Source: a virus
IMG/VR virus record: IMGVR_UViG_3300003873_000004
Span: 1-64,000 of that record
Direction: 5' to 3' (one strand)
Length of the DNA stretch: 64,000 bases
Shown piece after piece: positions 4,101 through 46,917 of this stretch. A program made the position numbers and the translations under genes. A model generated the notes under the pieces. The model saw only the letters and a list, made by a program, of their open reading frames with translations, searched no databases and had not been told where the DNA came from. The first letter of the stretch is position 1. Each line of letters opens with the position of its first letter.

Positions 4101-6337
4101 ATAATCCATACAACCATACAAAAGACCCAGGAGTCCTGGCCGGAATTTCAGCACAGATACAGGCAAGGCGGGCTTTAGGTATACCTCACGCCACTGGCGT
4201 CGCGATGAGCCAGAAAAGTGTCAAACAAGCATTTAATGGCGAAACACAAACGCAGGGTTGGGTCGCCCTTCAATTTAAGCGCAATAGAACGACAACAACT
4301 ACTGCTAATACGGTAACTGTTGTTCCAACTTCTTATACGACAACCACGGATAGCCTTGTATCAACTTCGGCTATTCCTTATATGCGTTCCCGTGCTGTAC
4401 ATTATACGCTTAGTGGAATGCGTCCAAATCAGACATTAATTTCTTCTTTTGACGGTATCGATGTTACTTCTCACTGTTCGAATCTTGTCGCAGATCCACA
4501 TGGTGGCTGTTCTGGCGTATTTACTATTCCTTCGGGACAATTCTTGACTGGAACCAAAACTTTGAAATTCTATGATGCGGTTGCTACAACCGATGCCAGC
4601 GCGGATTATTTCGCGCAGGGAACTTTACAACATCGTTTGATAACGACAACTACAATTCGCGGAAGTAGAACAGTCAACACAACCTCCACGAAAGTCACAA
4701 CAAAAGAAAAGCATGCCACTGTTTGGCTTGACCCAATCGCAGAAAGTTTCTTGCCAGTTACACCAAACGGAGAGGCGGGTGTGTATGTCACAAGTATAGA
4801 TTTGTTTTTCTCTACAAAAGCAACAGATTTGCCGGTAAGAATTTTCTTGGTTCCGACAAGTTCTGGAGTTCCAACGCAAAATATAATTCCATTATCTGAT
4901 GTTTCTTTGAACCCGGCTCAAGTGAACACATCTACAAATGGTTTCGTAGCAACGAATTTCAAATTTCAAGCCCCTGTTTATCTCGAAGCAAACGTAGAAT
5001 ATGCCGTTGTAATCACATCAAACAGTAATAACTATCATGTTTGGTATGCGAAACAGGGTGAGCCCACTTTGTTGAATCTAGCAGGTCAAACAGAAACAAA
5101 TAGAGGCGGTCTAGCTACGTCTAAACAACCATATTTGGGTGTTATGTTCAAATCACAAAACTCTTCAACTTGGACAGAAGATCAAAGTTCGGATTTGAAA
5201 TTCGTCATTCATCGTTGTGAATTTAATACTGCCGCTGGGTCTATGTACTTCGACACAGAGGATATGTCTGTTGCAACAGGTAACGGAAATGAAGGCATGA
5301 AAGCTAGCAGACTTCAGCCAAAACTCGAATCCCTGATCGTTGACGGCACCAATGTAGCGTATGATTATTCATTAGATAATGGAACTACATGGCTTCCGTT
5401 TGAAAATATATCCAAAATTTATAGTCCTACAACGCTAACATTGTCGACTGCCGCCGGCAACAAACCATTCAGCGTTCGAGCAACGATGACGACGAATAGT
5501 AGTTGGTTATCGCCAATGATAGATTTGAATAGAACCGGATATGCCACTTCATACAATGTTTATGACGTTAATCATGTTGGTGGAACGTATATTTCAAAAA
5601 CTGTTCAATTACAAAATCCAGCACTCGATTTCAGAGTTATGATAGATTTGCTCGAACCAGCAGGATCGAAGATTGACGTTTCGTTCAGTACGCAGACTCC
5701 TCAAGTTCCTATGAGCGCGACTAATGATTCTTTGAGTTATAGCGCAATTGATCTTGGTTTGATTGGCTTAGATTGTTTTGTATATCACAGGCAAACAACT
5801 ACTGGAAGTGTGACTAATGTTGGCGGATTTGTTCCAACAAAAATAACTAGCATTGATACTTTCGCCACAAACATCAGTAATATTGATATGTTTGTATCGC
5901 CAGCATCTTCGACAACGTATGCTGCTGTGGATAAAGTATTCTATACCAATGTTGCTGGATTGACTAATGTTATAGATTGGGTTGCTGGAAGTCATACAAT
6001 AGGAAGTTATGTATTCTATAATAACGCTATGTGGAAAGCATTGAACACAACAACAGCGGCGCCCACAACGAATTCGATTGATTGGGTAGAAATTCCATCA
6101 ATTTCAACCACTAGCGCAATGATTACCAACAATACGATAACTTGGCGACCAATGACAAGAACAAAAACATTGCCTGCCGGAATTGATCCAGGTTCTAACT
6201 TTTTCACATATACTCTAATTCCAGATAGTATTATCGAACAACCATTCGATAAATTTGCTGTGAAAATTGTCTTGACAAGTACGAATGACGCTGTTACTCC
6301 TACAGCGCAAAATCTAAGGGCGGTGGCAGCAACATGA
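1142..6337 (+). CDS. Giant DUF4815-type baseplate/tail structural protein
   Basis: A 1731-residue virion protein. Its N-terminus carries the hallmark of the DUF4815 family of T4-like marine phages: PYFDDFNANKNFLRVLF followed by RPGRAVQARELTQAQ and ILQNQI (residues about 7-45). The remainder is long, Ser/Thr/Asn-rich and beta-rich, with a possible short helical stretch near residues 800-830. It takes the place of T4 gp9/gp10 between gene 8 and the fibre genes, so a peripheral baseplate role or a fibre-attachment role is inferred. It has a late promoter and overlaps the next gene by 4 nt (ATGA). The exact function is unproven. Confidence 0.8.
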   Translation: MPSYNSSPYFDDFNANKNFLRVLFRPGRAVQARELTQAQTILQNQISSMASTIFKENSRVVGATTSIKTNKMTLVLNTTDSNHAAVDVNTLLGLTIQDDTTASTQAIVTDVDTAQNAILLDIKGGSFATGTVFRFLDAITGATSANTFTVASTHYSMVAHIDAGIVFVNSKFVTVPAQNIVVDSSTTMATKEFNVGYVVNEHTVDSTQDSTLVDNASGSLNFNAPGADRLSESITLSAYEVLRDVAGIETSITPNNFRKTMLIKNGAVLSDLIQNVKYSDILDLLARRTSLESGNYVVRPYRVTTKASTNPANFSVDIGEGSAFVNGYELNNQFTKTLEIPKSRDFSTATNQQLYFGAGAYFDVLNFTGAFDVDNEETLTFYNGVGGTGTVLGTAKVLSVVRNTFGDLRVYIQNYDNFISSFSSVSSFVGTTSGAKANVIIKNNKAVYSITNHSDAIVDVYGTSSYNNIKSIPAASVSYDVVKTFSAVAETTTGSMTYILPAPNTSTDFYVNGGVYALTNSTGVELVLGTDYSISSVINTNGGISTMTIATVAAQGAISAIVPMYKSATTARLKNVVKGTQETITSDVNGTVKLLTAYDIINFVSVEDMTVPASPVVVPSASYVTDNGQRNWFYDFGSVTGLTANTSYRITVDHFDHTTTGDYFSVDSYMSLPANLDSVTGFTDLYSRIGDYANGTSSYKLINCIDTRMTVANAGNSDKIRAESQNLQINYDYYIGRIDKVYMDSRGNFNVLSGIPSESPKEPTSIPGSMEIAMFSIPPYTHSFSDVSYVGFNNTRYTMADIARLEARLKNVEDYTSLTLLEKTAQSMSITDARGLNRYKNGIFVDDFSSHANGNTTDPNYNATIDPLGGLMAKQSENFNALNARTLNRTNIAEQKNLTVPALSADTVSLGYVEVEFISQKFNSNTINVNPYAAVVWHGQAAINPSSDIWVDTTYLPTSNNVQGAVVQASSSTSTHVSIRDKYSMVYNPYNHTKDPGVLAGISAQIQARRALGIPHATGVAMSQKSVKQAFNGETQTQGWVALQFKRNRTTTTTANTVTVVPTSYTTTTDSLVSTSAIPYMRSRAVHYTLSGMRPNQTLISSFDGIDVTSHCSNLVADPHGGCSGVFTIPSGQFLTGTKTLKFYDAVATTDASADYFAQGTLQHRLITTTTIRGSRTVNTTSTKVTTKEKHATVWLDPIAESFLPVTPNGEAGVYVTSIDLFFSTKATDLPVRIFLVPTSSGVPTQNIIPLSDVSLNPAQVNTSTNGFVATNFKFQAPVYLEANVEYAVVITSNSNNYHVWYAKQGEPTLLNLAGQTETNRGGLATSKQPYLGVMFKSQNSSTWTEDQSSDLKFVIHRCEFNTAAGSMYFDTEDMSVATGNGNEGMKASRLQPKLESLIVDGTNVAYDYSLDNGTTWLPFENISKIYSPTTLTLSTAAGNKPFSVRATMTTNSSWLSPMIDLNRTGYATSYNVYDVNHVGGTYISKTVQLQNPALDFRVMIDLLEPAGSKIDVSFSTQTPQVPMSATNDSLSYSAIDLGLIGLDCFVYHRQTTTGSVTNVGGFVPTKITSIDTFATNISNIDMFVSPASSTTYAAVDKVFYTNVAGLTNVIDWVAGSHTIGSYVFYNNAMWKALNTTTAAPTTNSIDWVEIPSISTTSAMITNNTITWRPMTRTKTLPAGIDPGSNFFTYTLIPDSIIEQPFDKFAVKIVLTSTNDAVTPTAQNLRAVAAT

Positions 6338-26208: not shown

Positions 26209-27849
26209 ATGACTGAATCTATTTATGATCAAAATTTAATTGATTTCTGTTTAGATCACAAACACAAAAAAGCAAAAACTATAGAAAAGAGTACGATGTT
26301 CGAGACTCTATTGAAAGCTACGTCGTGGCTTGATAGTCAGCATCCGAACACAAAAGACAGAATATGGATGGTATCGTACAACATTACAAAAATACCAAAA
26401 TGCCCTATTTGTAACAATGATAACATTTTGTCAAAAGACAAAGGCCGACACCGTTTTAGTAAATTCTGTTCAGAAAAATGTAAAGATATATTTCGTTCGA
26501 AACTTAATCCATTATTGAACGACAAGTCGTGGCTTTACGAACAGCGCATAACAAAGCATAGATCATATGAAGAAATTGCCAGAGAGTTAGATGTTAGAAT
26601 GCCAAGATTAAAACTGGCTCTTGAACGGTTTAATATACCAACGGAAAACCAAAAGCAAAAGATATTTGACGAAGATATTTTATCAATAATAAACAACAAA
26701 GACAGACTTGTTGATTTATACAAAAATCATACAATCAAGGAAATGGCAAAATTGATTGGAGTAGGTCATTCTTGTATAATAGAACGATTAGAAACTTTGG
26801 GAATTGATAGGAAAGCCAATTCTTATTGGTCTAGCCGCAGAGGTTCTTTGTTGACCAATAGCGCGAAATTGCTGGCTCTTCACAAAACAATGACTGTTGT
26901 CGAAATATCGAAGTTGCTTCATGTTACTGTAGATCACGTAAGGGGAAAGATAACTCAATATGAAATAGAAGAAGGTTTACGAGGGCCTAAGAAAAATCCG
27001 GGCAGAAGTTATGGGGAAATAAGTGTATTTGAATATATTATTTCGCTTATTCCCGAGGCAACTCACTCGAACCGGTCAATTTTAAACCACAAAGAAATCG
27101 ACATTTTAGTTGAATCGAAAAAGATTGGCTTTGAATACAACGGGCTATATTATCATTCTGAACTAAACAAAGATAAAGATTTTCATGTTAACAAAACGGC
27201 GCTGGCCGCCGAGAAGGGTTATACACTATTTCACATCTGGGAAGACGATTGGGTTTTTAATGAGAAAATTTGGAAGTCCAGAATAGCCAATCTGCTAGGT
27301 AAAACAGAACATAAAATATTCGCCAGAAAAACAAAGATTGTAGAATTACCAGCAAAAGAGAAAAATATATTTTTAGACAGCAATCATTTACAAGGTTCAG
27401 ATAGATCAACATGGAAATATGGTCTTATGAACGAAGGTATTTTAGTAGCGGTTATGACTTTCTCAAAATCATCAAAATACAACTATACTTTGTCGAGATT
27501 TGCTTGTTTACTGAACACGGCAATTGTCGGTGGGTTCTCTAAATTGCTAGCCCACTTTAGAAAAGAACATCAAGGAAGTATTGTTTCGTATGCTGATTTG
27601 TCCTACTCGAATGGTGATGTGTACAAGACTAATGGTTTTAAAGAAGAAGCACATTACACAGGAAATTACTGGTATCATTCCGGCGGAAATACAGGCAAAA
27701 GAATAGATAGAAGAAATTTTCAAAAGGATAATCTAAGAAAGAATTTTCCCAATTTTGATTTCAAAACAAATACAGAGTTAGAAATGGCACACGAACTTGG
27801 TTATTACAGAGTATATGGCGCAGGCTCAAAGACTTTCGTCTTATGCTAA
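26209..27849 (+). CDS. Homing endonuclease, zinc finger plus Vsr-like nuclease (paralogue A)
   Basis: 546 residues. The order of parts is: a Cys-pair finger (IPKCPICNNDN, then FCSEKCKDIF), three helix-turn-helix-like repeats (YEEIARELDVRMPRLKLALE; IKEMAKLIGVGHSCIIERLE; VVEISKLLHVTVDHVRGKIT), the nuclease core (NRSILNHKEIDILVESKKIG, FEYNGLYYHSE, FHIWEDDWVFNEKIWKSRI) and a C-terminal domain (HLQGSDRSTWKYGLM, GGFSKLLAHFRKEHQGSIVS). The E/D/H pattern fits Vsr-like (EDxHD-type) homing enzymes. It is inserted after gene 23, where T4 has gene 24. Confidence 0.72.
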   Translation: MTESIYDQNLIDFCLDHKHKKAKTIEKSTMFETLLKATSWLDSQHPNTKDRIWMVSYNITKIPKCPICNNDNILSKDKGRHRFSKFCSEKCKDIFRSKLNPLLNDKSWLYEQRITKHRSYEEIARELDVRMPRLKLALERFNIPTENQKQKIFDEDILSIINNKDRLVDLYKNHTIKEMAKLIGVGHSCIIERLETLGIDRKANSYWSSRRGSLLTNSAKLLALHKTMTVVEISKLLHVTVDHVRGKITQYEIEEGLRGPKKNPGRSYGEISVFEYIISLIPEATHSNRSILNHKEIDILVESKKIGFEYNGLYYHSELNKDKDFHVNKTALAAEKGYTLFHIWEDDWVFNEKIWKSRIANLLGKTEHKIFARKTKIVELPAKEKNIFLDSNHLQGSDRSTWKYGLMNEGILVAVMTFSKSSKYNYTLSRFACLLNTAIVGGFSKLLAHFRKEHQGSIVSYADLSYSNGDVYKTNGFKEEAHYTGNYWYHSGGNTGKRIDRRNFQKDNLRKNFPNFDFKTNTELEMAHELGYYRVYGAGSKTFVLC

Positions 27850-33792: not shown

Positions 33793-35010
33793 TCAGATAA
33801 AATATACAAATTTATCTTTTCGGACAACAGGAACTATAGATGCCTGTTCAGAAGACAACCAATAGAAACCAGTTCTATTTTGTTGTTTTCTACGAAGATC
33901 GGGCGCGATCGCCCGCAGTGGTGAAGCAATGTTTTTGGCTGCGTTCAAATCCGCGTCATCTAAATGACCGCATTTGTCGCACTCAAAAACTTTTCCTTTT
34001 CGGTTTGCTTTCTTCGTCCAACCGCATCCAGAACATCTTTGGCTTGTGTAAGTTGGGTTGATGTGCGTCACTAGAACGTCTAGTTCTTCACATCGAGCCT
34101 CGATCTTGTCAAAAATCTCTGGATATGTAAAATGAGAAAGGAATCTGGAACTTGTTTTTCCTTTCCTCATGTCTTTTATGTTTTCTATCTTTAGCTCTTT
34201 ACAACTGGACAGGTTTAGCCGGTTGATCGCCCAATTGATGTAGTTTGTTCTATGTTCTTGAGTCCTTCTAAATGCCTTCGAACCCTTTCTCTTTCTGGAT
34301 AAGGTTTTCATGATTGAATCGAGATCGTGACCGTGGCGGTCGATCTTCGAAACTTGATTGTCTGAACAAGAAATGAGAGTCTTTGCTCCAATGTCGATGC
34401 CTAGAGTTTCTGTTCCTACATTTTGTCTTGGTTCTATTTCGAACAACATAGTAATTTCCTTTTCGTTCAGTCTAATAGATTTTTTTAGCTCACCTCTTGT
34501 CAGCAAATTATTAAAATGTCTGTGCCGTTTGAAAGGCAATTCAATTTTTATTTTACTTCCTATTGATCGTAGAGTTATGTATCCGTCAAACGAAGTTTTG
34601 TTTTCTTGATCAATATGAACAAACCTAGAATCTAATTCCAAGTTTATCTTATCTAAAATTGGCTTAGATGGTGTATTGCGATCATAAACTTTTCTTAACT
34701 TGTTTGCTTTTTCGATGTTGCCTGATATTTCTAACTTATTAATCATCCATAAACGTTTCTTTTGCTTGGCTTTTGTTCCTTTAATGATGCCGATGGCCTG
34801 TTTTGTAGCACACTGTATCATTCTGGCAGAAAGCCAAGAAGTTATATTGTCAGTGAAGTCTCTCGTTGCGAACTTAGGGAGGGTTTCGTACCCCCAATAG
34901 AAGTCAATTGTTTTCTTCATAACATTTCTATATTCACAAACGATTGAAGACACCGTTTGTTTCTTCGATTTGTTTGTGAATTTAAGAGAAACTTTAGAAG
35001 ATTTAATCAT
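33793..35010 (-). CDS. tnpB: TnpB RNA-guided nuclease of IS607-type element
   Basis: A 405-residue TnpB (OrfB) with an intact RuvC-like site: Asp206 in TLGIDIGAKTLIS, Glu276 in CKELKIENIKDM, and Asp354 in DDADLNAAKNI. The zinc finger has CSGCGW (326-329) and CDKCGH (344-347). The N-terminal WED/REC-like region includes a helical HTH segment. TnpB cuts DNA guided by an omega RNA made from the element's right end and favours retention of the element. It overlaps tnpA by 8 nt. All key residues are present, so activity is plausible. Confidence 0.9.
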   Translation of the reverse strand: MIKSSKVSLKFTNKSKKQTVSSIVCEYRNVMKKTIDFYWGYETLPKFATRDFTDNITSWLSARMIQCATKQAIGIIKGTKAKQKKRLWMINKLEISGNIEKANKLRKVYDRNTPSKPILDKINLELDSRFVHIDQENKTSFDGYITLRSIGSKIKIELPFKRHRHFNNLLTRGELKKSIRLNEKEITMLFEIEPRQNVGTETLGIDIGAKTLISCSDNQVSKIDRHGHDLDSIMKTLSRKRKGSKAFRRTQEHRTNYINWAINRLNLSSCKELKIENIKDMRKGKTSSRFLSHFTYPEIFDKIEARCEELDVLVTHINPTYTSQRCSGCGWTKKANRKGKVFECDKCGHLDDADLNAAKNIASPLRAIAPDLRRKQQNRTGFYWLSSEQASIVPVVRKDKFVYFI

Positions 35011-41269: not shown

Positions 41270-43393
41270 ATGAAAAAGAAAACTGAATTGCTGGCTAAAA
41301 TGATGGCCGCAGAAGATATTAACGTCATCTTCTCAAATGCTAAAACCGCCAGTTTCAATCCCGTATCCAGAACATTAGCAATGCCAACATTTGTAGAAGA
41401 CTCACCAGAGTGTGTACGATTTGGTTTCGTAGCACATGAAATTTCGCATGCTATTCACACACCAGCGGTAGAAAAAGTTACCCCGATTCTGAACATTGTC
41501 GAAGATATACGCATTGAGAAGTTGATCAAGCGTAAATTTCGCGGTTCTGCCAATTACATTTCAAAAATGTATGAATACTTATGGAGCGAAAACTTTTTTG
41601 GTTGTAATGAAGATGGAATCAACACCAAGAATTTTCTAGATCGCTTGAATGTTTATGCTAAGACCAAAGATTCTAAAAACGCTCCTAGTGTTCATTTTTC
41701 TGATGAAGAACAAAAGTTGGTTGATCGTTCTTTCCTTACGACGTCATTTGAAGATGTGCTGTCACTATGTGAAGAAATCAAAGAGTTCATGAAAAATCAA
41801 CAGCAAAATGAAGAACCAGAAACTACAAAAGAAATTCGCCGCGATAGTGACGAATCAGAAGAACAGAAAGAAAGTCAAGTTGAAGAATCTGATGCTGACG
41901 AAGAAGAAACTGACGAAGAGTCAGAAGAAAGCGAAAAACAAGAGTCTGAAGTGGATGAAGAGGAATCCCAAGACGAATCAGAAGAACAGAAAGAAAGTCA
42001 AGTTGAAGAATCTGATGCTGACGAAGAAGAAACTGACGAAGAAGAAACTGACGAAGTCAAACCATCAGGTCAGCTTGACGGCGAGACGATTCAAGAAGAA
42101 TTTGAGCCAGAATCAGAAACTCAAGATCAACTAGATAACGCTTTCAATGAAATGGTAGATAAAGAAAAGAAAAGTGAAGATGTTGCTATGGTTGGAAGTT
42201 TTCCAGAAGATTTGATCCACAAAGACGGGGTTATCGAATTTCTCGAGAAGAAAATGAAATATACAAAAGGCGGTATCACGTATGGTACTGGCATACATCG
42301 TCGATATGTCAGCAATGTGGTTTTGCTTCTTGATTCAGATGACAGAACTGCGAAATTTATCAATGATGCTAAGGCTCAGGTAGCTTTGCTTTGTAAACAA
42401 TTCGACATGAAAAAACGGGCTTCTCTATTTTCGAAGAGTAAAATCGCATCTACTGGGGAACTTGATGTGAATTTGCTGTCAGAATATAAATTTAAAGATG
42501 ACCTATTCTTGAAAGATGAAATCTTACCAAAAGGAAAGAATCATGGTTTGGTGCTGCTGATAGACTTTTCGTATTCAATGGAGAGCCGAATAGATGCCAC
42601 GTGCAAACAAGCTGCTGTTTTGGCGCTGTTTGCTAGAAAGGCTAACATCCCATTGAAAATATATGGGTTTACGACAGCACGATGGCGTGGATTTGATGCC
42701 AAGAAATTTGATGTTTCTGAGCAGGAAATCAACATTGGCAAAGCTGTTATTTTTCAGATTATTGACACATCAATCAAAGTTTCAAAATCTGATTTTGTTC
42801 GCGTCATTAAATTGTTGACACATGCCCCGACATGGTTTTATGATATTTCTGGAATGACTCCAATGTCAACTACAGCAATGGTGGTCAGCGATGACGTTAT
42901 TCGCTGGAAATCAAAAAATCAAATCGAACGCGTTAGCACATTGTTTCTTACTGATGGTGCTTCACACTATCCGGTTAAGAAAAACATTGATCCTAAAATA
43001 GACAAAGATTTTCTAGTTTTTTATGGAAAATTGTTTGACACTAAAACCAAAAAGAAGCACGAAAGTTCCGATATGAGGTCGGCTTATAAAATATACAAAG
43101 ATCGTACACAATCATCAATTGGAACAATGTTTATCGCCACAAGAAAAGATTTTCGTTATATTGTTAATGCCAAAGACTTTTCTGAATTGAAAGCAGAAGG
43201 TATTGTGAAAGTTGATTATATGAGCGACGTTGTTGATGCCTATTTTTACATGACTGACGAAGATCGGCTTTCCGATGTCGCTGACATGGAAATCGAAGAA
43301 GGAAAAGCTGCTGGTCGATCGTTCACAAAGAAAGCCCGCGCTAAAGCCAAGTCGATAGTGTTTGTTACATACTTTGCTGAACTGCTCGGATAG
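41270..43393 (+). CDS. CobT-like protein with zincin motif and VWA domain
   Basis: 707 residues. The N-terminal domain has a zincin-like metal site FVAHEISHAIHT (HExxH, residues 56-60) and IVEDIRIEKLIKRKF, a layout seen in CobT-like proteins. Residues about 185-290 are an acidic linker built from a repeated unit (SEEQKESQVEESDADEEETD, twice). The C-terminal VWA domain has the MIDAS start LVLLIDFSYSMESRI (near 430) and the later FLTDGASHY. It pairs with the CobS-type AAA+ ATPase downstream, as in MoxR/VWA and cobaltochelatase systems. Its real role in phages is unknown; cobalamin synthesis is unlikely. Confidence 0.8.
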   Translation: MKKKTELLAKMMAAEDINVIFSNAKTASFNPVSRTLAMPTFVEDSPECVRFGFVAHEISHAIHTPAVEKVTPILNIVEDIRIEKLIKRKFRGSANYISKMYEYLWSENFFGCNEDGINTKNFLDRLNVYAKTKDSKNAPSVHFSDEEQKLVDRSFLTTSFEDVLSLCEEIKEFMKNQQQNEEPETTKEIRRDSDESEEQKESQVEESDADEEETDEESEESEKQESEVDEEESQDESEEQKESQVEESDADEEETDEEETDEVKPSGQLDGETIQEEFEPESETQDQLDNAFNEMVDKEKKSEDVAMVGSFPEDLIHKDGVIEFLEKKMKYTKGGITYGTGIHRRYVSNVVLLLDSDDRTAKFINDAKAQVALLCKQFDMKKRASLFSKSKIASTGELDVNLLSEYKFKDDLFLKDEILPKGKNHGLVLLIDFSYSMESRIDATCKQAAVLALFARKANIPLKIYGFTTARWRGFDAKKFDVSEQEINIGKAVIFQIIDTSIKVSKSDFVRVIKLLTHAPTWFYDISGMTPMSTTAMVVSDDVIRWKSKNQIERVSTLFLTDGASHYPVKKNIDPKIDKDFLVFYGKLFDTKTKKKHESSDMRSAYKIYKDRTQSSIGTMFIATRKDFRYIVNAKDFSELKAEGIVKVDYMSDVVDAYFYMTDEDRLSDVADMEIEEGKAAGRSFTKKARAKAKSIVFVTYFAELLG

Positions 43394-43395
43394 GT

Positions 43396-43500
43396 GCTTG
43401 ACAAACAGAGCAAAAGGGTCTAGACTTATTGTATTGACAGAGACAAACCACAGGAGATTTAATTATGGCACAAGAAGTATCAATTACAGATTTTGAAAAG
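43396..43500 (+). repeat. 105-bp duplication, copy 1 (promoter, leader and first 12 codons)
   Basis: Nearly identical to 43652-43756. From the -10 through AACCACAGGAGATTTAATT and the codons for MAQEVSITDFEK the copies are the same; differences are confined to the promoter spacer. Confidence 0.9.
43398..43426 (+). promoter_or_regulatory. Sigma70-like promoter, duplicated copy 1
   Basis: TTGACA-17 bp-TAGACT followed by the TTATTGTATTGACAGAG leader. Confidence 0.75.
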
Positions 43501-43650
43501 CAAGTGAAAAGAGCCAAAGACGTTTTTGCTTATGTTGAAGGAATTGGATACCTCAAGGTAACCAAACAATCTTTGCTTGCTACTGTCGACAACTATCCAG
43601 AAGACGACTATTTTTTCAGGCCCGACGAAAATGCGGTTTATATCAATTAA
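43465..43650 (+). CDS. Small protein sharing the CobS N-terminal tag
   Basis: 61 residues. The first 12 (MAQEVSITDFEK) are identical to the start of the CobS-type protein 256 bp downstream; the remaining 49 (QVKRAKDVFAYVEGIGYLKV and on) are unrelated. It has its own promoter and an AGGAG ribosome site. The sharing reflects a local duplication of promoter and gene head. The function is unknown. Confidence 0.6.
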   Translation: MAQEVSITDFEKQVKRAKDVFAYVEGIGYLKVTKQSLLATVDNYPEDDYFFRPDENAVYIN

Positions 43651-43651
43651 C

Positions 43652-43756
43652 GCTTGACAAACAGGTTAAAAGAGTCTAGACTTATTGTATTGACAGAGAC
43701 AAACCACAGGAGATTTAATTATGGCACAAGAAGTATCAATTACAGATTTTGAAAAG
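43652..43756 (+). repeat. 105-bp duplication, copy 2
   Basis: Second copy, heading the CobS-type gene. Confidence 0.9.
43654..43682 (+). promoter_or_regulatory. Sigma70-like promoter of the CobS N-part
   Basis: TTGACA-17 bp-TAGACT, upstream of the ATG at 43721. Confidence 0.75.
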
Positions 43757-44632
43757 GGCGTTCTTGCTGAATATGGAACCAACGAATTATGTCGTCGAAA
43801 GATTGTTGAGTTTGCTAAGAAATATGATTACCGGGTTCCAAAACAGGTTTGGAATAACAAAACGTCAGAGAAGCGCGGCGCGACATATATTGTATCGGAA
43901 CAACAAGTAACCAAGACTCAGACAGTAGATCAGAGTCAGCTAGTTGAAACACCAATAGCGGTAAAACCAAAGGCTGAAGTCGAAATGGTCGGTGGTATCA
44001 AAGCTATCCGTAGTACGGAAACACGTTACACCATCGACAAAGATCCAAACTTCATCCGTTGGGGCAACTTTTCAGACTTTCGAGCAATCATCAAAGCAAA
44101 TCGTTTCTTTCCCACTTTTGTCACTGGGTTGTCTGGTAACGGTAAGACTACAGGAATCGAGCAGGCTTGCGCGGCAGAGGGTCGAGAATGTATTCGATTC
44201 AACTTCACTCGTGAAACTGGTGCGGACGATTTGCTTGGCGGGCTTAGGCTGATTGACGGAGATACTGTTTTTCAGTATGGTCCGATTGCTGAGGCATATA
44301 TGCGTGGAGCAATCCTTATACTGGACGAATGTCTAGAAGAAAACGAAGAGGTTCGAGTTGGAAAGGTGAACGAATGGGTTCCAATGAAACTCAAGGATAT
44401 GAATTTTGGCCAAACTTACCCTGTAGTGTCATTTAATCAAGATACTGGAAAGTTTGAAAACGATACGGCTTCTATTATTTCGGATAAAGATGACGATCTT
44501 TACGAAGTTGAATTGGAAGATGGTTCGACAGTTGTTGTAAACTCGAAGCATCCGTTTGTGGTTGGCGACGGCAAAGAAACCAAAACAATAGAAGATGGAC
44601 TTATTGTAGGTGCCGAAGTGGTCGTTGCTTAA
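43721..44632 (+). CDS. cobS: CobS-type AAA+ ATPase N-terminal part fused to N-half of a split intein
   Basis: 303 residues. Residues 1-203 are the N-extein of a CobS/MoxR-type AAA+ ATPase with Walker A FVTGLSGNGKTTGIEQA (about 132-148), RETGADDLLGGLRL and Walker B AILILDE. The frame then enters an intein: Cys1 (codon at 44330) with CLEENEEVRVG, a middle YEVELEDGSTVVVNSKHPFV (block B with its His), and ends at 44632 with GLIVGAEVVVA, 100 intein residues in all. The matching intein C-half and C-extein are at 45885. Alone it lacks the sensor and arginine-finger parts. Confidence 0.88.
   Translation: MAQEVSITDFEKGVLAEYGTNELCRRKIVEFAKKYDYRVPKQVWNNKTSEKRGATYIVSEQQVTKTQTVDQSQLVETPIAVKPKAEVEMVGGIKAIRSTETRYTIDKDPNFIRWGNFSDFRAIIKANRFFPTFVTGLSGNGKTTGIEQACAAEGRECIRFNFTRETGADDLLGGLRLIDGDTVFQYGPIAEAYMRGAILILDECLEENEEVRVGKVNEWVPMKLKDMNFGQTYPVVSFNQDTGKFENDTASIISDKDDDLYEVELEDGSTVVVNSKHPFVVGDGKETKTIEDGLIVGAEVVVA
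44330..44629 (+). mobile_element. Split intein N-half (CobS Walker B site)
   Basis: 100 residues beginning with Cys1 directly after ILILDE and containing the block B-type SKHPF. It ends at a natural stop rather than a frameshift, and a separate endonuclease gene follows, as in fractured genes with split inteins. Confidence 0.85.
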
Positions 44633-44659
44633 TTCATGTAATTCCAAAAACTGAAATTA

Positions 44660-44667
44660 TATAAATA
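44660..44667 (+). promoter_or_regulatory. Late promoter TATAAATA for the intein-associated endonuclease
   Basis: An exact T4-type TATAAATA, 5 nt before the ATG at 44673. Confidence 0.7.
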
Positions 44668-44672
44668 AAGAT

Positions 44673-45821
44673 ATGGATATAAATTATATAAACTTCGTTA
44701 AAGAAAATTTGGATTGGTATATAGAAAATGTTACGATTCCTGGGACAGTAGACATATATGATGGTGTTTATCACAATAGGTCTATTGCCCGGGACAAGTA
44801 TAAAGAAATACAGCAAATAGATGTCGAGAAAGCTTGCCCAACGTGTGGTAAGAAATTCACCAGAAATATTCGACACAAGAAAATATATTGTGGTTCCACC
44901 TGTCGTTATGGAGCAAAGAGGTCGACAAAGAAATATAGAACAAGAGAGAAAACCAACATCGTAACATACTCAGGATTACAGGAAGTTCTCACAGAACTCA
45001 GAAAAATTAACGCTATCGAATATTTAAAAAACTACACCTTCCAAAATAAACCAATACAAAAGACAAACACCAAGAAAATCCGAGAGATACTTACGTTGTT
45101 TTCTAAAGACGACACCTTCGATGTTATTTTTGTAGACGGTTCGTTTGGGAAGATACCAGTGAAAAGAACCCAGTTTTCTGAGGATTATTTAGCAAAGGCC
45201 ATAAAATTAGGCATTCTCAACGAAGGTTCATCATACGACGAAATATACAAAACGAAATTTCCAGACGCGTATGCCAAATGTATAAAATGCGGAAATGACT
45301 TTTTGAAATACAAATATAGTCAAACCGAGAAACGGTTAATTAGGAATATTATGTATGACCTTTGTTCTTATAAATGTATATGTGATTCAAGAAATGAATT
45401 ATATCCAGTATCAGACGAAACAAGGCAGCGGCAGTCGAACACTACAAAGTCTATTATAGCCAAAGGGCTGTTTACGCCAATCAACAATGCTATGAGGGGC
45501 AGAAAACAATCAACCAGCGAAAAATACGGAGAGGAAGTAAAATTCGATAGTTCCTGGGAGAAAAAGTTTTACGAGGAATATGAATATGAATTAAAACGAA
45601 GCACCCCTAGAATAGAATATATCTCTCCAATCGACAACAAATCCCACATATATGTTGTTGATTTTTTCGACAACAGAACAAAAACGATGATAGAAATCAA
45701 GCCGTCTTGCCACGTTTCTGATGAAGTTATAGTTGCTAAGACGGCAGCGGCAAAATTATGGGCAGAAGAACACGAGTGTACATTTAAAATTATCACGGAA
45801 AAAGATTATGATTTCTCTTGA
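44673..45821 (+). CDS. Free-standing homing endonuclease between split-intein halves
   Basis: 382 residues. The N-terminal part has a Cys finger (ACPTCGKKFTRNIRHKKIYC, then GSTCRYGAK) and a second pair (AKCIKCGNDFLKYK, then LCSYKCICD). The C-terminal 100 residues fit a PD-(D/E)XK-like nuclease: VKFDSSWEKKFYEEYEY, IEYISPIDNKSHIYVVDFF, TKTMIEIKPSC. It lies between the two intein halves and has its own late promoter; no splicing domains are present. It probably moves the whole fracture into intein-less cobS genes. Confidence 0.75.
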   Translation: MDINYINFVKENLDWYIENVTIPGTVDIYDGVYHNRSIARDKYKEIQQIDVEKACPTCGKKFTRNIRHKKIYCGSTCRYGAKRSTKKYRTREKTNIVTYSGLQEVLTELRKINAIEYLKNYTFQNKPIQKTNTKKIREILTLFSKDDTFDVIFVDGSFGKIPVKRTQFSEDYLAKAIKLGILNEGSSYDEIYKTKFPDAYAKCIKCGNDFLKYKYSQTEKRLIRNIMYDLCSYKCICDSRNELYPVSDETRQRQSNTTKSIIAKGLFTPINNAMRGRKQSTSEKYGEEVKFDSSWEKKFYEEYEYELKRSTPRIEYISPIDNKSHIYVVDFFDNRTKTMIEIKPSCHVSDEVIVAKTAAAKLWAEEHECTFKIITEKDYDFS

Positions 45822-45846
45822 CAAAGTGTTCGAAAGGGTCTAGACT
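45818..45846 (+). promoter_or_regulatory. Sigma70-like promoter of the CobS C-part
   Basis: TTGACA-17 bp-TAGACT with the TTATTGTATTGAAAGAG leader; it starts inside the endonuclease stop region, so the C-part is transcribed independently. Confidence 0.75.
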
Positions 45847-45884
45847 TATTGTATTGAAAGAGACAAATCAAAGGAGAATTTATT

Positions 45885-45998
45885 ATGGAAACAAAAAAAG
45901 TAGTTTCAATCAAAAAAGTAGGTCGCGGGCATGTCCGCAATTTGTGTGTAAACAAAAATCACACGTTCGTCACATCTAACGGAATAGTTACCCACAAT
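45885..45998 (+). mobile_element. Split intein C-half
   Basis: 38 residues with its own ATG, ending THN followed by the nucleophile Cys of the C-extein. The length is typical of natural split-intein C fragments. Confidence 0.85.
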
Positions 45999-46553
45999 TG
46001 CGACCTAGCAGATGCTAGAATAATGTGCCTTCAATCAGTTCTCGAAGGCAAGCCAATTTTCCTGCCAAAACTTGGTAAGAAAATTCATCCGGCTAAGGGA
46101 TTCAATGTGTTTGCTACTGCTAATACCAAAGGTAAAGGTTCAGATAGTGGGCAATTCATGGGAACAAATGTCATGAATGAAGCATTTCTTGATCGGTTTT
46201 CAATCACCATTGAACAGAGTTATCCAGCCGCGGCGATTGAGAAGAAGATCGTCAGTAAATATGCCACTGACTATTTCGGCCATGTTCTCAGTTTGCGAGA
46301 TCAGACGGTTTGTGATAACTTGGTAACTTGGGCACAGATCACCCGCAAGAGTTTCCTGGAAGGTTCAATTGACGAACTGATTTCGACTCGTCGACTGATT
46401 GCTACGGTTGAGTCGTATGCCATTTTCGGTTCAAATATCGAAAAGAGTATTGAATATGCTACGAACAGGTTTGATGACGATACTAAGGAAAGCTTCGTGG
46501 AACTGTACAAGCAAATCGATTCTGGTATGAAAACATTTGAGGAGGACGAATAA
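45885..46553 (+). CDS. cobS: Split intein C-half fused to C-terminal part of CobS-type ATPase
   Basis: 222 residues. Residues 1-38 are the intein C-half (METKKVVSIKKVGRG, VRNLCVNKNHTFVTSNG) ending in block G IVTHN, with Asn38 followed by Cys+1. Residues 39-222 are the C-extein: CDLADARIMCLQSVLEGKPI, FNVFATANTKGKG (sensor 1 area), LDRFSITIEQSYP and the lid helices. Joining at ILDE/CDLADAR rebuilds the normal MoxR/CobS motif LDExDLAD. The predicted spliced protein has 387 residues. Confidence 0.88.
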   Translation: METKKVVSIKKVGRGHVRNLCVNKNHTFVTSNGIVTHNCDLADARIMCLQSVLEGKPIFLPKLGKKIHPAKGFNVFATANTKGKGSDSGQFMGTNVMNEAFLDRFSITIEQSYPAAAIEKKIVSKYATDYFGHVLSLRDQTVCDNLVTWAQITRKSFLEGSIDELISTRRLIATVESYAIFGSNIEKSIEYATNRFDDDTKESFVELYKQIDSGMKTFEEDE

Positions 46554-46830: not shown

Positions 46831-46917
46831 TGGCAGGTTGGCGAATGGTTGAAACCGCCCGGCTCATAACCGGATTGCGAAAGCACACTGTAGGTTCGAA
46901 TCCTACCCTGCCGACCA
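46831..46917 (+). tRNA. tRNA with CAT anticodon and long variable arm (class II-like)
   Basis: A closed cloverleaf: a 7-bp acceptor stem (46831-46837 with 46907-46913, first pair U-G), T arm GTAGG-TTCGAAT-CCTAC (46890-46906), discriminator A and encoded CCA (46915-46917). The anticodon loop CTCATAA gives CAT (46865-46867) on a CCGG/CCGG stem with a mismatch at the fifth pair. Between anticodon and T arms is a 15-nt variable arm with the TGC-GAAA-GCA hairpin, as in Ser/Leu/Tyr tRNAs. The D stem is short (GCG/CGC). Confidence 0.8.

Follow-up and report, generated by a model that had tools for sequence, protein, structure and literature searches.

Why should a phage ATPase gene be broken in two inside its ATP site, with a nuclease gene lodged between the pieces? 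The question is raised by a cobS-like gene in bases 1 to 64,000 (here, the window) of the 95,268-bp virus record IMGVR_UViG_3300003873_000004. Three open reading frames (ORFs) follow each other on the + strand, at 43721-44632 (303 aa), 44673-45821 (382 aa) and 45885-46553 (222 aa), and the coordinates, lengths and gene order given in an original prediction for this locus agreed with ORF calls to the residue. With a probability of roughly 0.88, the sequences of the first and third ORFs contain the two halves of a class 1 split intein whose insertion point immediately follows the Walker B glutamate (ILILDE/C), in a fractured-gene arrangement with a nuclease gene. A split intein at the Walker B motif of a CobS-like gene had been proposed originally, and this was largely supported by intein motifs, by a relative (locus L037) whose intein is contiguous and occupies the identical codon, by a model of the HINT fold and by empty cobS genes in syntenic relatives.

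The frame of the N-half gene runs through Walker A (GLSGNGKT) and Walker B (ILILDE) before continuing as C204 LEENEEVRVG... up to its stop codon. The second half-gene opens with 38 residues ending in NGIVTHN, which are followed by CDLADARIMCLQ. Comparison with phrog_249 placed the N-terminal extein at positions 44-202 of that family (E 2e-36) and the C-terminal extein at positions 202-360 (E 3.2e-57). Fusion of the exteins in silico afforded a protein of 387 aa with no gap at the junction in alignments with the CobS proteins of S-CAM1 (51% identity) and HTVC008M. The junction was also gap free in comparison to L072, the nearest intein-free relative (59%; motif LILDELDLADP), which has the same neighbor genes as the fractured cobS. 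Joining the halves gives the standard MoxR/CobS motif LDExDLAD, as had been expected. The original prediction had also looked to related phages for an intact cobS, and an uninterrupted CobS is encoded by the syntenic relatives L072, L003 and L004. The label CobS itself stood as a family name but not as a cobaltochelatase equivalog, since the two halves scored 13.9 and 59.8 bits against TIGR01650, far below its cut-off of 558.55 bits. Because of these low scores, the product is named a CobS-like MoxR-type AAA+ protein rather than a cobaltochelatase subunit; no cobalamin function is implied. Since Walker A and Walker B are carried by one chain and the C-terminal ATPase half by the other, it is reasonable to conclude that splicing would decide ATPase activity.

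The N-half matched the NCBIfam model of intein N termini with 22.4 bits (E 1.8e-4), just under the cut-off of 24.5, and the C-half passed the cut-off of the C-terminal model (25.2 bits versus 15.6). Family profiles, for which the window was one of seven training sequences, scored the halves at E 3.8e-41 (N) and 7e-19 (C). The residues of class 1 inteins are present, with Cys1 at codon 44330 and THN/C at 45990-46001; both halves are full length, and Cys1, the block-B His, the block-F His, His-Asn and Cys+1 are all intact. Nonsynonymous substitution (dN) was low in the N-half, where synonymous substitution (dS) was saturated, and dN/dS was 0.055-0.144 in the C-half where measurable. The N-half is 50% identical to the corresponding segment of the 462-kb phage LR756500, whose broken gene is gp44. 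That the two halves represent one intein is indicated by L037, in which the CobS intein is contiguous, in a single reading frame of 521 codons, at the same codon as the insertion in the window; the nuclease region is what sets L037 apart from the split L007, and the exteins of the two are 84% identical. The fold was tested on this contiguous same-site relative, standing in for the two-chain form of the window. The AlphaFold model of the L037 intein (predicted local distance difference test [pLDDT] score of 95.7) displayed a HINT fold, and its top Foldseek matches in the PDB were all inteins (best E 1.9e-9).

The protein encoded between the halves matched the Pfam family Tn7_TnsA-like_N (PF08722) with 37.7 bits (cut-off, 26.5; E 3.1e-9). 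Alignment of 12 intervening nucleases revealed a common C-terminal core with S(S/T)W(E/D), D and E(I/V/L)KP motifs, to which the conserved residues E296, D330, E341 and K343 of the window nuclease belong, and Cys pairs in the N-terminal part of most of these proteins. In the AlphaFold2 model the core mostly had pLDDT values of 82-95, with a mean of 58.9 for the whole protein. VIA-align superimposed the core on TnsA (Z 9.7) better than on I-Bth0305I (Z 6.3), which belongs to the same PD-(D/E)XK superfamily, or Vsr (Z 6.1). Since Foldseek alone gave no match at E <= 0.001, the TnsA assignment stands on VIA-align and Pfam; a nuclease profile run against PDB sequences gave weak matches only, which look like composition, and none to I-Bth0305I. 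The predicted fold and the conserved residues identify the protein as a TnsA-like PD-(D/E)XK nuclease with an E...D...(E/Q)xK core.

When the window C-half or the nuclease served as a single-protein query against viral contigs, nothing usable was returned, so that alignment queries were needed. Scans of IMG/VR with alignments of the N-half and of the C-half yielded 61 loci, some of which share a contig and some of which contain unrelated inteins. One intein was taken per contig, and the resulting 33 family inteins, window included, reside in CobS (n = 6) or in gp44-type clamp loaders (n = 27). All but one are located at, or within five codons of, a common Walker B DE/C site (32/33), and most lie exactly after DE; the off-site inteins are those of L040 (CobS, shifted by two codons), of L012, five codons downstream, and of L053, which is inserted still further along, close to sensor 1. 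The family includes contiguous inteins, split inteins without a nuclease and split inteins with one. The CobS members are the window, L006, L007 and L036 (split with a TnsA-like nuclease), L037 (contiguous) and L040 (split). Between the CobS halves of L040 lies a reverse-strand ORF of about 390 aa (4664-5973) with a treble-clef-like Cys motif and an HNH-like motif, which matched no family above the cut-off. A 292-aa ORF replaces the nuclease between the gp44 halves of L042 (5085-5963) and weakly resembles ADP-ribosyltransferases (Pfam E 0.01, below the cut-off). A second gp44 intein, at Walker A, with a C-fragment of about 130 aa and apparently atypically split, was observed in L012 (1071-1460), L016 (5476-5860) and L028 (5455-5860); some gp44 genes are thus in three pieces.

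Every CobS intein was nested among gp44 inteins in the intein tree, and a divergent all-gp44 clade lay outside with 100/100 support, a topology that favors gp44 as the source of the CobS inteins. Many branches of this tree (137 columns) are weak, and at least seven changes between cis and split forms are needed. Constraining the CobS inteins to one clade was not rejected (approximately unbiased test, P = 0.112), so that the tree is compatible with a single jump into CobS as well as with several. L048, in which gp44 holds an intein and cobS is empty, is the mirror image of the window. Inteins were more identical than exteins by at least 7 points in 14 of 15 pairs of CobS loci, as in L006/L007 (83% versus 60%) and window/L036 (66% versus 46%); values were equal for the close pair L007/L037 (85% versus 84%). 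The presence of the intein required five changes in a tree of 80 CobS exteins, all five forced by well-supported branches. The CobS intein is rare, since five intein-bearing contigs were found in IMG/VR versus at least 594 matched CobS-encoding stretches. Higher identity of inteins than of exteins and their scatter among empty CobS genes mark these inteins as horizontally mobile. Relatives of the CobS intein of the window were all metagenomic, with none in the phage collection scanned.

The same TnsA-like nuclease type was also found between the halves of the terminase gene gp17 of phages Thanatos-2, TB34 and phiR1-RT (L033, L034 and L035), broken at Walker B (IYIDE/C). These breaks look like an atypically split intein, and the loci are annotated as two separate terminase genes. 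Since gp17 is split at its own Walker B, as are CobS and gp44, comparison of the motifs indicates that phage P-loop ATPases of three kinds share a break at one and the same point of this motif. The nuclease would then read Walker B-encoding DNA.

The + strand of the 95-kb record has 14 exact or near copies of TTGACA-N17-TAGACTTATTGTATTGA, and seven copies of this early-type promoter lie in the window versus 0.03 expected. Each cobS half has its own copy, and the C-half also has a Shine-Dalgarno sequence. The leader of the C-half gene is identical to the cobS leader at 57 of 69 nucleotides (nt) and equally so (57/69) to a leader at 74.08 kb. Copying of the C-half promoter from cobS itself was therefore dropped as an explanation, and membership in the same promoter class is all that is claimed. 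A TATAAATA box was present <=75 nt 5' of the nuclease gene in 9 of 15 loci versus 0.53 expected by shuffling. This box was not enriched across the whole window (4 versus 4.5 expected), so that its designation as a late box depends on its location 5' of nuclease genes. A hairpin enclosing the box was detected in L006 (z -3.2) and L036 (z -4.2) and, more weakly, in L007 (z -1.7), but was not supported 5' of the window nuclease (z -0.77). Together, these elements suggest that matching promoters would drive early synthesis of both halves and that the nuclease would follow late. Directly 5' of cobS is a 61-aa ORF (43465-43650) that has, at 96% identity, the promoter, leader and first 12 codons (MAQEVSITDFEK) of cobS and is divergent thereafter; the region (43396-43650) looks like a partial tandem duplication.

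Table 1. Sequence features of the fractured cobS locus, in window coordinates
Feature	Position	Strand	Basis
Sigma-70-like (early-type) promoter of the cobS N-half gene, TTGACA-N17-TAGACT	43654..43682	+	Sequence; predicted activity
CobS-like (MoxR-type AAA+) N-extein, residues 1-203, ending at Walker B ILILDE	43721..44329	+	phrog_249; Pfam AAA_5 E 2.4e-8; alignment to S-CAM1 and HTVC008M CobS
Walker A GLSGNGKT	44126..44149	+	Sequence; invariant in CobS alignment
Intein N-half, 100 aa, Cys1 (CLEENEEVRVG...SKHPFVV...)	44330..44629	+	NCBIfam intein_Nterm; LR756500 identity; family profile
TATAAATA box, late-promoter-like, beginning 13 nt 5' of the nuclease start codon	44660..44667	+	Sequence; enrichment across loci
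Nuclease gene, 382 aa: Cys-rich (zinc-finger-like) N-terminal part and TnsA-like PD-(D/E)XK core	44673..45821	+	Pfam; conserved residues; structure match
Nuclease catalytic core, residues 277-380	45501..45812	+	AlphaFold2 model; VIA-align to TnsA 1t0f/1f1z
Early-type promoter of the C-half gene, TTGACA-N17-TAGACT; -35 box overlapping the nuclease stop codon	45818..45846	+	Sequence; leader identity
Intein C-half, 38 aa, terminal His-Asn (...NKNHTFVTSNGIVTHN)	45885..45998	+	NCBIfam intein_Cterm; family profile
CobS-like C-extein from Cys+1 (CDLADAR...), 184 aa and stop	45999..46553	+	phrog_249; TIGR01650 E 2.4e-16

The genome carrying the fractured cobS is that of a T4-like, marine-type phage. 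The window encodes T4-type head, tail and replication functions, including the portal, scaffold, major head protein, terminase, an SbcC-like protein, gp45 and gp44. The order of the replication block is the SbcC-like gene, a VWA/CobT-like "peptidase" gene (41270-43393), cobS, gp45 (46978) and gp44 (47659), with a tRNA-Met gene (46831-46917) shortly 3' of the fractured cobS block. Elsewhere in the window, a 546-aa homing-endonuclease-like gene (26209-27849; phrog_3339 E 9e-91; weak match to REase_MTES_1575) adjoins the major head protein gene, and a transposase-like gene (phrog_506 E 2.8e-30) is present on the - strand at 33793-35010, in a T4-type phage. Outside the window, an NrdA-like ribonucleotide reductase gene with a contiguous mini-intein (SNL/C...VHN/CSEI) occupies positions 93170-95268 of the record (L071 13170-15268) and extends past the contig end.

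The following mechanism would account for the locus. The precursors read from the sequence are 203 aa of ATPase followed by the 100-aa N-half (IntN) and the 38-aa C-half (IntC) followed by 184 aa of ATPase. IntN and IntC would bind each other and splice in trans, through an acyl shift at Cys1, transfer to Cys+1 and cyclization of Asn38, to form a single 387-residue ATPase that, without splicing, would be inactive. The TnsA-like nuclease, made late as suggested by the late box, would cut intein-free alleles, and repair would then copy the whole intein-nuclease cassette. The CobS inteins would most likely derive from the more numerous inteins of gp44, the clamp-loader gene close by, at the same Walker B site.

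Several observations weigh against a functional trans-splicing intein associated with its own nuclease. At the block-B position where Thr is usual, the window (NSKH) and related CobS inteins have Asn, and Asn also replaces the Asp of block F; because both substitutions occur across the intein family, splicing probably tolerates them. The model of the nuclease is poor over its first 270 residues. Identity of the window nuclease to its counterparts at other CobS loci is only 25-29%, in comparison to 59-66% for the inteins, and because of this disparity the nuclease and the intein may have separate histories. Finally, split phage enzymes can work without splicing, with Aeh1 NrdA and T4 topoisomerase, after endonuclease insertions in T4-like phages, and gp43A/B as precedents (PMC2988022). 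By analogy, the two CobS products might stay separate and assemble noncovalently into an active ATPase, the intein halves being relics, and the presence of a promoter and a ribosome-binding site on each half would suit such an assembly. We regard it as quite improbable, since the intein halves are full length with Cys1, the block-B and block-F His, His-Asn and Cys+1 intact, amino acid changes are rare relative to silent ones, and the break lies inside the ATP site. In addition, the CobS gene nearest to a split form, that of L037, carries its intein contiguous and in frame, which implies that its function requires splicing.

Divergence of the nuclease from those of other CobS loci and the lack of support, in the window, for the prenuclease hairpin of its relatives (z -0.77) could instead point to a dying or dead intein, with splicing or the nuclease inactive and the phage living with a broken cobS. 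This is very improbable, considering that all three ORFs are open, that the catalytic residues of the nuclease are conserved, that the C-half has a well-formed promoter and a Shine-Dalgarno sequence, and that both extein halves keep their conserved residues. The split might also benefit the phage, rather than being a tolerated parasite, by coupling ATPase assembly to timing or conditions, as the matching early-type promoters of the halves and the TATAAATA box 5' of the nuclease could suggest. Such regulatory splicing is unlikely, because scatter among hundreds of intein-free CobS genes and the excess of intein over extein identity are those of a mobile parasite, and the promoter of the C-half is equally explained as simply restoring expression. 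An assembly artefact or a chimeric contig, conceivable for a single metagenomic virus record, is scarcely credible; the gene order recurs in the independent contigs L006, L007 and L036 and at many gp44 loci, including that of the 462-kb phage LR756500, which excludes a chance arrangement. The preferred reading thus remains a class 1 split intein at the Walker B motif of CobS.

A broader reading can be entertained tentatively. One split-intein/nuclease system may specialize on Walker B-encoding DNA, with the conserved hhhhDE motif as the landing site in gp44, in CobS and, for a related nuclease, in gp17. It would jump between genes and not only between alleles, the host gene being kept alive by the matching early promoters of its halves and the nuclease being confined to late infection. 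Because contiguous, split and split-plus-nuclease forms exist at one codon, even within one gene (L037 and L007), the origin of natural split inteins becomes reconstructable and testable. The family also suggests that inteins move between paralogous ATPases via a common catalytic motif. With natural halves of canonical sizes and Cys at both positions 1 and +1, it offers protein engineers new split inteins.

Fractured genes, in which the two halves of a canonically split intein break up a conserved enzyme and flank a separate endonuclease gene, were reportedly described from phage and metagenomic sequences by Dassa et al. 2009, with I-Bth0305I said to represent the endonuclease family. The window shares the split enzyme, the canonical split intein and the separate nuclease gene with these loci. 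It differs by its target, a CobS-like AAA+ protein (gp44 being the other host of the family) broken at Walker B, by the occurrence of contiguous, split and split-plus-nuclease forms at one site of the CobS/gp44 family, and by a nuclease core nearer to TnsA than to I-Bth0305I. The parallel drawn in the original prediction with gp41-1, NrdJ-1 and IMPDH-1 held for the architecture but not for the lineage. Gp41-1 and NrdJ-1 have the same HINT fold (Foldseek matches 6qaz and 8ubs) and the same combination of a long N-half with a short C-half, whereas sequence similarity is low (gp41-1, E only 0.002) and the exteins and sites are different, so that the window intein is separate.

Closer to the motif, the gp17 loci share a split at Walker B and a TnsA-like nuclease between the halves but differ by an atypical split with a short N-fragment and a C-fragment of about 105 aa, by a terminase extein and by in-frame fusion of the nuclease to the N-fragment in two of the three phages. 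AceL-TerL and GOS-TerL are atypically split terminase inteins (PMC11766414). The mycobacteriophage intein TerL1-e, described in an account from which split inteins are absent (PMC5050341), likewise resides in the Walker B motif of a phage P-loop ATPase, in another extein. In T4, I-TevI, segB and mobE have a late-promoter box just 5' of the nuclease gene, enclosed by an RNA hairpin that keeps the start hidden on early transcripts (PMC2988022). The late box is found before the window nuclease and the enclosing hairpin in L006 and L036; the window differs by the unsupported hairpin and by a nuclease that is tied to a split intein and is TnsA-like, not GIY-YIG or HNH. A literature search, with the Dassa 2009 locus list outside the comparison, retrieved no paper that connects inteins to the CobS of phages or reports an intein in phage gp44; that list may already include some gp44 loci. 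Thus, fractured genes with a split intein and a nuclease, Walker B inteins of phage terminases and atypically split terminase inteins are already known, whereas the CobS/gp44 family, its TnsA-like nuclease, the Walker B position common to three ATPase families and the contiguous-to-split series within one gene appear to be new.

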